NCBI GenBank assembly: GCA_016871495.1
Contig: VHDF01000038.1
Coordinates: 1 to 42,022, forward strand
Direction: 5' to 3'
Origin: Verrucomicrobiota bacterium
GTDB lineage: Bacteria > Verrucomicrobiota > Verrucomicrobiia > Limisphaerales > VHDF01
DNA length: 42,022 bases
The notes beneath the pieces were generated by a model. That model was given only the letters and a program-made list of their open reading frames with translations, was not told where the DNA came from and searched no databases. Shown here in pieces: positions 2,962 to 10,219 of this stretch. Each line of letters begins with the position of its first letter. Positions within the stretch are counted from its first letter, which is position 1. The position numbers and the translations under genes are program-made.

Positions 2962-3492
2962 ATGACGATCATTCTCACGCTTGTGGGGCCGGACCGCACC
3001 GGCATTGTGGAAGAGGTTTCTCATCTGCTGGTCATGCATGGCGGCAATTGGCTGGAGAGCCGGTTTTGCCGTTTGGGCGGCCATTTTGCCGGGATTTTGC
3101 GCGCGGACATTCCCCTGGAGAATCGCGATGCGCTTCACCGCGCTTTTGACTCGATGCGAGGCGGCGGATTCGAGATTCAGCTTCGTGAAGGGAGCGTTCT
3201 TCTGGCCGCGCAAGCGATGCATTTCGCCCATCTCGAGGTGGTGGGCGGCGACCGTCCGGGCATCGTTCGCCAGATCAGCCAGATCCTGGCTCGATTGGCG
3301 GTCAACGTGGAAGATTTCGAGTCCGGCTGCGAAAGCGCTGCGATGTCGGGGCACTCCCTGTTCTCCGCCAGGGCGACCCTGGCGCTGCCACCCCAGGTCA
3401 GTGTGGAGACTTTGCGATCCGCCTTGGAGGGCATTGCGGACGACTTGATGGTGACGGTCCGCCCTGGCGCTAAGGAACAGGGGCCAGGGTGA
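2962..3492 (+). CDS. Double ACT-domain regulatory protein (GcvR-like)
   Basis: A 176-aa protein made of two ACT domains (about residues 1-75 and 85-165). The first begins ILTLVGPDRTGIVEEVS and the second EVVGGDRPGIVRQIS, both with the glycine-containing ligand loop. The organisation matches the glycine-cleavage repressor GcvR and related amino-acid-sensing proteins. No DNA-binding domain is present, so it presumably acts by protein contact, as GcvR does. The ATG at 2962 is preceded by a good Shine-Dalgarno, GAGGGGA; an upstream TTG at 2947 is less likely. Its 3' end overlaps the convergent selenoprotein candidate by 23 bp. The ligand is unknown. Confidence 0.8.
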   Translation: MTIILTLVGPDRTGIVEEVSHLLVMHGGNWLESRFCRLGGHFAGILRADIPLENRDALHRAFDSMRGGGFEIQLREGSVLLAAQAMHFAHLEVVGGDRPGIVRQISQILARLAVNVEDFESGCESAAMSGHSLFSARATLALPPQVSVETLRSALEGIADDLMVTVRPGAKEQGPG

Positions 3493-4429
3493 TGCGGAAG
3501 AATCCCTGGGTTCCAGGTTCGGCTGCGGCATCGAAGCGGAACGAAGTTTCGAAACAGCCTGTGCCATCGAAAAGATTGGCGTCGGGGGCCGCGAGAACAG
3601 GCCGCTTCAGCCCGGGCTGCCAGTCTCCGAGTTGCGGGGAGAGTTCGTAGGAAGCCAGGCTCATGGCGGGCGCAGGCCGCCGAAAGGTGGCGACGAGACT
3701 ATTGAGCGCTCCGTTCTTGACCACGGTGAGTCGCACGGACGGGCGGCTGGAGGAGTTCAGGGGCGAAGTTCCGTGGGCCCATTCGGCGAGGTTGCTCACG
3801 CCGTCATGATCGGCATCCTCGTTCGGGCCTGGGGTTAGATTGCCGAAGTGTTTTTCCTCCCACAGATCGGGCAGTCGATCGCCGTCGGAATCCACGACTT
3901 TTGCCGCTTCGAGGAGGAGTTTCTTGAGGGCGGTGTAGTGGGTGGGGAGGAGCAGGTTCTGGCTGGTGAGGTTGAAGACTCCGGACAGCCGGTTCACGGG
4001 GTCGAGGATGCGGACATCGCGGTAGGTGGCCTTCCATTTTTCGGCTACGGCCAGGTCGAAGCGATCTTGAAGCCAGGGCAGGTTGCGGCCTGCGGTTGCG
4101 GTGGCATTGAAGGAGGCGTAGTTGGTGCGGTTGATGCCGAGGATTTCGATGTTAAATCCCACCCGCTCCGCCCGGAGTTCCTTCTGCAAATCGTTCAAGT
4201 ACCCAAACTGGGTACGGCAGTAACTTCACTCCGCGGAGCCGAAGTAAAAGGCGGAGACTTGGAAGACGTAATCGCGGGGAGAGACGGACGCATGGAATCG
4301 CGGGGAATTGGGATTTTCGTCAGGCAAGCGCCAGTCGGCTTCGGGGGTGGCGGCGCGGGCGAACGCGGTCATGACGGCCATCAACAACGCAAGGGAAACC
4401 CTGGCGGCCCCGGACGAAAGCGGATTCAT
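3470..4429 (-). CDS. Candidate secreted selenoprotein: thioredoxin-like domain with UxxC motif and Ca-type DxDxDG tail
   Basis: Read through one in-frame TGA (4226-4228), this is a single 319-aa protein. Residues 1-27 form a signal peptide (MNPLSSGAARVSLALLMAV...ARA). A thioredoxin-like domain follows (VFQVSAFYFGSAE-U-SYCRTQFGYLNDLQKEL), with the TGA at codon 68 exactly where the first Cys of CxxC belongs. The tail has thrombospondin-3/EF-hand-like acidic motifs (DSDGDRLPDLWE, DADHDGVSNLAEWAHGTSP) often found in exported Verrucomicrobiota proteins. A 6-bp hairpin with a G in the second loop position starts 10 nt after the TGA. Both flanks of the TGA are in the same frame and both are needed for the thioredoxin fold. 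The alternative is a nonsense mutation or a sequencing error. Start ATG at 4429; its ribosome site is weak. The C-terminal end overlaps the ACT gene. Confidence 0.72.
4199..4228 (-). promoter_or_regulatory. Bacterial SECIS-like hairpin just after the in-frame UGA
   Basis: On the minus strand the UGA (4228-4226) is followed by ten bases, then a perfect 6-bp stem GUACCC/GGGUAC (4215-4210 with 4204-4199) closing a five-base loop AGUUU. The loop begins 17 nt after the UGA and has G as its second base. This agrees with the bacterial SECIS rule as I recall it: a short stem, a G among the first two loop bases, and a loop about 16-37 nt from the UGA. A weaker outer pairing of GUU with AAC is possible. 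Selenocysteine insertion is inferred; selA, selB, selC and selD are not in the window. Confidence 0.68.
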
Positions 4430-4493
4430 AAGGCGGTTACGGTAGATCAAACAGAGAAGTTTTTCAAAACTTTCCCACCATGGCCGGGCATGG

Positions 4494-8044: not shown

Positions 8045-10219
8045 ATGCACCCCGCCGTTTTTCGGAATTGGCTCCTGCTCATGGGATTCGCAGCCAGCCT
8101 GGACCTTTGCGCCGCCGCGTCGCTTCGCGCCGGAGCGTCCTCCGTCTCGATCAATCCGCCTGAGTTTCCGGTTCGAGTGAACGCCATGTTCACGGAGCGA
8201 ACCGCCAGTCAAGTGGTGGACGACTTGCAGGCCAAGGCCTTGGTGCTTGAGGCCGGGGGCACCACGATCGCCTTGTGTGTCGTGGACACTTGCATGATGA
8301 CGCGCGATTTGATCGACGCCGCCAAGGTTCAGGTCTCGCAAGCCACGGGAATTCCGGAGCATCGCATGATGGTTTCGGCGACTCACACGCACTCGGCTCC
8401 TTCCGCCATGGGCTGCCTGGGCAGCAGGATGGACCCGCGCTACGCCGCTTTTCTGCCGGGGCGCATCGCACGGGCGATGATCGAGGCGCACAAGCGGCTG
8501 GCTCCGGCCGAAATGACCGTGGCGCAAGCCCCGCTTTGGGAACACACGTTCAACCGGCGCTGGATCCGGCGGCCCGACACGCTTCTCACCGATCCTTTTG
8601 GCGACCGTAATGTGCGCGCCCACATGCACCCCGGGCACAACAGTCCGGACGCCATCGGTCCGAGTGGTCCCGTGGACCCGGAACTTTCGATCCTCGGTTT
8701 TCGGGGAATGGATAGACGTCCACTGGCGGTGTTCGCGAACTATTCGCAGCATTACTATGGTTCCCCGTTGCTGTCTTCCGACTATTTTGCGCGCTTCGCG
8801 GATCACCTGGGCAAAATGCTGGGCGCCTCCGAGGGTTTTGTCGGGATCATGTCCCAGGGGACCAGCGGCGATTTGATGTGGATGGACTATGGAGCGCCGA
8901 GGCGGGAGATTGGCTATGATGCCTATGCCCGGGAGATTGCCGAGGCTGCGGCGGGTTTGTTGCGCGACGCCCGCTGGACATCGCGGGTGCCCTTGCGTTG
9001 TGAGGAAAAGTTGCTTCCGTTGGAGTATCGTTCTCCCGGTTCGCAACGCCTTGCCTGGGCGCGTGAGATGGAGGCACGACTTGGGGAAAAGCTGCCGCAG
9101 ACCTTGCCCGAGATTTACGCTTTGGAAGCCATTCATCTTCACGAGAAGCCGCGCACCGAGCTCAAGATTCAGGCGTTGCGGATCGGAGAGGCCGCCATCG
9201 CGGCGTTGCCCAACGAGGTGTTCGCCCTGACCGGACTGAAGATCAAGCGGCAGAGCCCCATGGCCGCGACGTTCAACGTTGAACTGGCCAATGGTGCCGA
9301 AGGTTATATTCCGCCCCCGGAACAACACCGCCTCGGAGGCTACACCACCTGGCCTGCTCGCACTGCCGGACTGGAAACGAACGCCGAGCCTCGCATCGTT
9401 GAAACCGCCCTGAGCTTGCTGGAGAAGGTCGCCGGAAGAAACCGCCTTCCATTGAAGGAGGATCAGGGAAGCTATGCCGTCAAAGTGATGCAGTCCAGGC
9501 CTTCGGCCTACTGGCGGCTGGAAGACATGACGGGGCCGGTGGCCAAAGACGCGATGGGTGTGCATGCGGGAGCTTTCGAGGGATTGGTAGCGCTCTGGCT
9601 CCCCGGCGCCGACGGCCGCATGGGGCATCATCCTTCCGTGTTGCCGGCGCCGAATGCCTTCTCCGGAAGTTCGATCAATCGTTCGGTCCATTTCGCGGGC
9701 GGACACTTGGCGGTGGCGATGCCGCTGCCCAAGGCCTATACCCTTGTTTTTTGGGTGTGGAACGGCCTGCCCTCGCATGCGCGTGGGCTGACGGGGTATC
9801 TTTACTCGCGGGGTCCGCGAGGAAGCCTGGAGGCGGTGGAAAGCCTGGCCCTTGGAGGCTCGGCCCTCGCTTCGGTGAAAGGAGCGGGCCGATTGCTGCT
9901 TCATGGTGGAGAGCACACGAACGAGCCTTTTTGGGGGCGGAATCCCCTGGGGCTCCAGACCTGGCATCACGTTGCCCTGGTGCGGACCGGCGATCGGGTT
10001 CGCGTGTATCTGGACGCGCGATCAAGTCCCGAGATTGATGCGATCTTGCCGATGGGGTCTGGCGGGCCGCGATGGGCGATGACCTTTGGCGGACGGGCGG
10101 AAGGAGGACTCGGGCTGGAAGGCCGGATGGATGAAATTGCGGTGTTTTCTAGCGCGCTCACCCTCGAACAGCTGCGAGCTCAGTACGCGGCCGCTCGAGT
10201 TCGGGCGCTTGAGTTCTGA
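8045..10219 (+). CDS. Secreted neutral/alkaline ceramidase-like protein with C-terminal LamG-like domain
   Basis: A 724-aa exported protein. A signal peptide occupies about residues 1-25. The N-terminal half (about 26-450) resembles the neutral ceramidase N-terminal domain: LRAGASSVSINPPEFPV, the metal-type motif SATHTHSAPSAMG near 115-127, NYSQHYYG, and SQGTSGDLMW. The C-terminal part (about 490-715) is a concanavalin A-like/LamG domain (YWRLEDMTG, FSGSSINRSVHFAGGHLAV, TWHHVALVRTGDRVRVYLD, GRMDEIAVFSSALTLEQLRAQY). PVC bacteria use such ceramidase-like domains broadly, so the true substrate (sphingolipid, other amide or ester) is open. The LamG domain may bind glycan. Confidence 0.75.
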   Translation: MHPAVFRNWLLLMGFAASLDLCAAASLRAGASSVSINPPEFPVRVNAMFTERTASQVVDDLQAKALVLEAGGTTIALCVVDTCMMTRDLIDAAKVQVSQATGIPEHRMMVSATHTHSAPSAMGCLGSRMDPRYAAFLPGRIARAMIEAHKRLAPAEMTVAQAPLWEHTFNRRWIRRPDTLLTDPFGDRNVRAHMHPGHNSPDAIGPSGPVDPELSILGFRGMDRRPLAVFANYSQHYYGSPLLSSDYFARFADHLGKMLGASEGFVGIMSQGTSGDLMWMDYGAPRREIGYDAYAREIAEAAAGLLRDARWTSRVPLRCEEKLLPLEYRSPGSQRLAWAREMEARLGEKLPQTLPEIYALEAIHLHEKPRTELKIQALRIGEAAIAALPNEVFALTGLKIKRQSPMAATFNVELANGAEGYIPPPEQHRLGGYTTWPARTAGLETNAEPRIVETALSLLEKVAGRNRLPLKEDQGSYAVKVMQSRPSAYWRLEDMTGPVAKDAMGVHAGAFEGLVALWLPGADGRMGHHPSVLPAPNAFSGSSINRSVHFAGGHLAVAMPLPKAYTLVFWVWNGLPSHARGLTGYLYSRGPRGSLEAVESLALGGSALASVKGAGRLLLHGGEHTNEPFWGRNPLGLQTWHHVALVRTGDRVRVYLDARSSPEIDAILPMGSGGPRWAMTFGGRAEGGLGLEGRMDEIAVFSSALTLEQLRAQYAAARVRALEF

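Follow-up and report, generated by a model that had tools for sequence, protein, structure and literature searches.

A gene on the minus strand of the window, the whole 42,022-nucleotide stretch of verrucomicrobial DNA analysed here, very probably encodes an exported thiol:disulfide-type oxidoreductase with a selenocysteine (Sec) nucleophile, and its apparent internal stop codon is almost certainly read as Sec. Supporting this are conservation of the UGA, translation of the 3' half of the gene, a covarying SECIS, the Sec machinery, Sec/Cys exchange among relatives and the predicted fold. A sequence-only reading of the window had already proposed an exported selenoprotein, and this is now backed by the machinery, the Sec and Cys homologues and the covarying SECIS, with export judged from the protein sequence.

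An in-frame TGA at a redox-active position

The ORF starts with an ATG at 4429-4427, and its sense codons span 4429-3473. As the sequence-only reading had it, a single in-frame TGA (4228-4226, codon 68) splits an otherwise open frame at the first redox position of a thioredoxin-type motif (...FGSAE-U-SYCRTQFG...), with Cys codon 71 intact. Under table 11 the frame breaks into a piece of 67 residues and a second ORF downstream, and standard gene calling would end the protein at residue 67 and call the remainder on its own. The features of the gene are as follows.

3470..4429, minus strand: selenoprotein ORF, 319 codons with UGA as Sec, TAG stop at 3472-3470; 20 genomes have one TGA at the same codon
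4349..4429, minus strand: candidate signal peptide, about residues 1-27, by reading (hydrophobic core, ...AFARA-A cleavage-like site)
3905..4339, minus strand: thioredoxin-fold domain, residues 31-175; NF053656 redoxin_TUGYCR, 188.2 bits (cut-off 100), E 6.7e-56
4226..4228, minus strand: predicted selenocysteine UGA, codon 68, first position of U-S-Y-C
4217..4219, minus strand: codon of Cys71, the second redox residue of UxxC, unchanged across 21 sequences
4199..4215, minus strand: SECIS-like hairpin GUACCC-AGUUU-GGGUAC, loop 16 nt after the UGA; covaries in homologues
3761..3892, minus strand: DxDxDG (TSP3-like) linker, about residues 180-223, conserved in homologues; the Pfam bacterial TSP3 repeat model (PF18884) matches 1 of 4 members of alignment A1
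3473..3739, minus strand: C-terminal domain of beta strands (232-317 in the model), about residues 231-319; conserved DGTG motif

The same TGA in twenty genomes

The domain was searched for in whole genomes of the order (n = 320), the class (n = 384) and the phylum (n = 388), as well as in named genome contigs. Eighteen of the 320 order genomes exceed the NF053656 cut-off, 17 with exactly one TGA in the match and one, G013, without. Two genomes from another family of the same class (class search, n = 384) and a MAG labelled as a delta-proteobacterium (L055) also carry one TGA in the match. Sec forms total 20 genomes, the window's included, with homologues 37-48% identical. In every Sec-form relative the TGA falls at codon 68 in the alignment, with xxC directly behind it, and no Sec-form gene has a further in-frame stop. 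G013 is the sole Cys form among the 21 family members, with TGC at the codon-68 site. A homologue alignment at this codon, which the sequence-only reading had suggested as a check, thus places Sec in 20 members and Cys in G013, with WCxYC in a sister subfamily described below. In selenoprotein families Cys forms usually outnumber Sec forms (PMC1794560), and the near universality of the Sec form here (20/21) is unusual.

Decay behind a genuine stop brings dN/dS near 1. In close pairs of these genes dN/dS is below 1 on both sides of the UGA, and downstream of it the values are 0.22 (L063/L064), 0.16 (L058/L056) and 0.13 (L011/L054), from which we conclude that the 3' half is translated, in keeping with the earlier remark that the frame continues past the TGA. 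A pseudogene or truncated gene, with the TGA a true stop and the 3' half decaying, would account for the split frame under table 11, but it is exceedingly improbable and we reject it: purifying selection acts downstream of the TGA across many genomes, the same TGA stands in 20 of them with no other stop, and the alignment of 21 sequences has invariant residues on both sides. An error of sequencing or assembly, turning TGC, TGT or TGG into TGA, might be suspected in a fragmented draft genome of 201 contigs; it is vanishingly improbable and is likewise rejected, since the TGA recurs in independent assemblies of 20 genomes, accompanied by a covarying hairpin.

Two Sec forms differ from the rest in detail. 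In L055 the domain (match 4001-4447) follows a Gly-rich stretch and has no tail C-terminal to it, and its presence in that MAG may possibly reflect lateral transfer or a misbinned contig. In genome G098, the Sec form at L075:1196-2164 (+) has one extra residue before Sec (ASTUGSC), and Ser replaces the usual Tyr.

A covarying SECIS-like hairpin

The sequence-only reading had described a perfect GUACCC/GGGUAC hairpin ten bases beyond the TGA with G second in the loop, and both the structure and its agreement with the SECIS rules hold. Published bSECIS rules ask for a loop of 3-9 nt, a stem of 4-16 bp, G in the first two loop positions, a distance of 16-37 nt from the UGA and an MFE of at most -7.5 kcal/mol (PMC13188914). 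The window's hairpin, which begins 10 nt after the TGA, has a loop of 5 (or 3) nt, a stem of 6 (or 7) bp, G at the second (or first) loop position and a spacing of 16 (or 17) nt. Alone it folds at -8.5 kcal/mol, and the best fold of 39 nt reaches -9.9 kcal/mol (z -2.0 against shuffles).

A single hairpin is weak evidence, the bSECIS rules alone being loose, and it is covariation that carries the argument. In the window's other genes, a stem-loop satisfying the published rules comes after 9.6% of the 5,203 in-frame codons; synonymous recoding of the hairpin stretch yielded such a stem-loop in only 0.33% of 3,000 trials. In each of the 20 Sec genes a hairpin starts 10 nt past the UGA; its loop, which reads AGUU(U/C), lies at 16 nt. 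Besides the window's GUACCC/GGGUAC, the stems include GUGCCC/GGGCAC, GUACUC/GAGUAC (with Gly to Glu), GUGGCC/GGCCAC, GGAGCC/GGCUUC and GUAUCC/GGAUAC. Across the ungapped alignment of the 20 genes, 99.2% of cells are paired and four of the six pairs have changes on both sides; one gene, L065 (genome G144), has an A:C stem mismatch. Covariation scores 0.427, compared with an average of 0.180 in shuffles, of which 0/500 reach 0.427; slid controls do not exceed 0.128. Conservation and covariation of the hairpin across 20 genomes are far beyond chance. This hairpin is missing from the corresponding place in the Cys gene of G013 and in the Cys sister genes, and an Rfam scan around the window's gene returned one sub-threshold match only, unrelated.

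Sec machinery

The search for selA, selB, selC and selD that the sequence-only reading had proposed found all of them in the window's genome, over cut-off: selA at 477.8 bits, selB at 255.8, selD at 300.7 and tRNA-Sec at 60.9, the last with anticodon TCA (ARAGORN). selB and selA adjoin on contig 24. The full set is also present in Sec-form genomes G051 and G053, and selA occurs in 15/17 Sec-form genomes of the order vs 76/303 others (Fisher p 2e-7). selA and selD were not found in Sec-form genomes G140 (60% complete) and G082 (66%), gaps most simply explained by the incompleteness of these genomes.

The residue inserted at a UGA cannot be told by computation, which leaves room for decoding by plain readthrough, a suppressor tRNA or a variant genetic code. 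Such decoding is very improbable given the full SelA/SelB/SelD/tRNA-Sec set in the genome, a UGA position that aligns with Cys and a hairpin that follows the SECIS rules. A variant code was considered and rejected; L011, L054 and L076 use TGA as their own terminal stop. Insertion of Sec is the reading that we retain.

The SelD of this genome (L049:259-2526 (+), contig 44) is itself a 755-residue fusion with Cys in the SelD active site, preceded by an N-terminal part that by eye resembles an FAD/NAD(P) oxidoreductase. SelD fused to an NADH dehydrogenase-like part, with Cys, has been described (PMC4561486). In G051, G053, G807 and G842, SelD contains one TGA.

Predicted fold and domains

A fold model built from 21 sequences, with Sec modelled as Cys, has a pLDDT of 89 and a pTM of 0.84, and replaces a poor model from 4 sequences (pLDDT 65). 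It places a beta strand at residues 57-64 and a helix at 69-88. Sec68 falls just before the helix, where thioredoxins classically have their active site. Among solved structures the closest are ResA (Z 17.5, rmsd 2.2, 135 residues) and DsbE, with peroxiredoxins next; the model has a ResA/TlpA-like fold in which UxxC opens the active-site helix. A profile search of solved-structure sequences gave no match for the thioredoxin domain alone and, for the whole protein, weak matches only, mostly to the DxDxDG stretches.

The signal peptide and DxDxDG tail of the sequence-only reading are both present by inspection. Two DxDxDG-type stretches followed by the beta-strand domain also occur in the other members, with the exception of L055, whose protein ends after the thioredoxin domain. 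The TSP3-like linker is probably calcium-binding. An apparently exported selenoprotein with extra extracellular-type domains offers a test case for why selenium pays outside the cytoplasm.

It is possible, though unlikely, that the selenoprotein acts mainly as a peroxiredoxin-like peroxidase and not as a thiol:disulfide oxidoreductase. Its best Pfam match is AhpC-TSA, which falls under its cut-off (PF00578, 20.6 bits vs 26), and peroxiredoxins such as Bcp4 and Prx4 rank little below ResA in the fold comparison. Against this, ResA and DsbE chains top that ranking and the motif is UxxC, not PxxxTxxC/U. We therefore favor a thiol:disulfide oxidoreductase.

Relation to known families

The window's protein matches positions 2-146 of the 146 in NCBIfam NF053656, 'TUGYCR motif thioredoxin fold (seleno)protein', and shares with it the UxYCR motif, Sec or Cys, although its own motif is E-U-S-Y-C-R where the family has T-U-G-Y-C-R. 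The model covers the domain alone (kind 'domain'), whereas the window's protein adds the signal peptide, DxDxDG linker and beta domain. The sequence-only reading did not know this arrangement as a described family, and novelty is the one point on which we correct it: NCBIfam release 20.0 (June 2026) already names the domain a (seleno)protein. Neither 'TUGYCR' nor 'NF053656' was found in a literature search, and a May 2026 catalogue of 119 prokaryotic selenoprotein families lists neither (PMC13188914). The core domain is an NCBI-named family, undescribed in the papers found.

Like ResA, TlpA and DsbE (CcmG), which are exported and have a two-residue redox motif at the helix start, the protein has the same predicted fold; unlike them it has Sec for the first Cys, added C-terminal domains and only about 15% identity, and no ResA/TlpA/DsbE sequence model matches it (E up to 1). 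Two broader catalogued families, the Prx-like thiol:disulfide oxidoreductase (PF00578) and the Redoxin family protein (PF08534), likewise combine a thioredoxin fold with UxxC (PMC13188914), but the window's protein scores under the Pfam cut-off of each (20.6 vs 26 and 13 vs 26.6). UGC-containing TlpA selenoproteins (cd02966, PMC13188914) have Sec in a TlpA/ResA-like fold, but their motif is UGC and not UxxC. No match to the gene was found in phage records.

Exchange of Sec and Cys

The Cys form, G013, belongs to genus g14, in which the other four members are Sec forms with selA. In this genome, which is 96% complete, no selA, selB or selD was found over cut-off; a marginal tRNA-Sec match (47.3 bits, just over cut-off) has another tRNA-like match next to it and probably represents an ordinary tRNA. 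In the tree G013 is nested inside the Sec-form clade of its own genus, with moderate support at the inner forks and a long G013 branch, a position as expected for replacement of Sec by Cys upon loss of the Sec trait. With four Sec members and one Cys member that lacks the machinery, the genus amounts to a natural experiment in how Sec is lost.

A sister subfamily has 13 proteins, all from a single genus in another family of the order; they score 37-52 bits to the domain profile and, where scored against NF053656, fall below its cut-off. Eleven of the 13 have CxxC at the active site, and two have TGA at the same place.

L083:1282-2058, minus strand (G175): candidate sister Sec gene, TGA at the active-site position, 11 close relatives with Cys; below the NF053656 cut-off
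L085:1381-2157, plus strand (G169): candidate sister Sec gene, likewise

The SECIS-like hairpin of this pair is different (CCAGAU-CGUGA-AUCUGG, 20 nt after the UGA; -5.5 kcal/mol alone and -9.5 for 48 nt), and dN/dS downstream of the UGA is 0.19. G169 carries selA, selD and tRNA-Sec together on one contig; none of the three was found in G175. Because they are clustered in G169, a single assembly gap could explain their absence from G175. The sister TGA looks like an independent Sec/Cys exchange at the same site, in either direction. We see an even chance that exchange has run both ways within single genera, Sec to Cys with loss of the machinery in G013, and, independently, Cys to Sec in G169 and G175 with a new hairpin that differs in sequence and spacing.

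A model for the protein

Our inferences on Sec insertion itself, on export, on substrate and reductant, and on what the tail does can be set out as a model. SelA would use selenophosphate from SelD to convert Ser-tRNA-Sec to Sec-tRNA, which SelB would bring to the ribosome; SelB would recognise the hairpin behind the UGA, and the UGA would thereby be read as Sec. The product would then be exported by the Sec translocation pathway and fold into a ResA/TlpA-like thioredoxin domain. There, U68 at the start of the active-site helix may attack a disulfide, sulfenic acid or peroxide, and C71 would resolve the selenenylsulfide formed at U68. The DxDxDG and beta domains may hold the thioredoxin domain in the extracytoplasmic space.

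No gene neighbor or operon partner that would point to the substrate or reductant is common to the window and the three relatives examined. In a class-level relative (L058:1522-6916), the gene lies near a siroheme decarboxylase NirDL-like/AsnC-type gene and a cytochrome c gene, neither seen beside the other relatives examined. Elsewhere in the window, a gene at 8045-10219 (+) encodes a ceramidase-like N-terminal stretch, just below the Pfam cut-off, together with a LamG-like domain.
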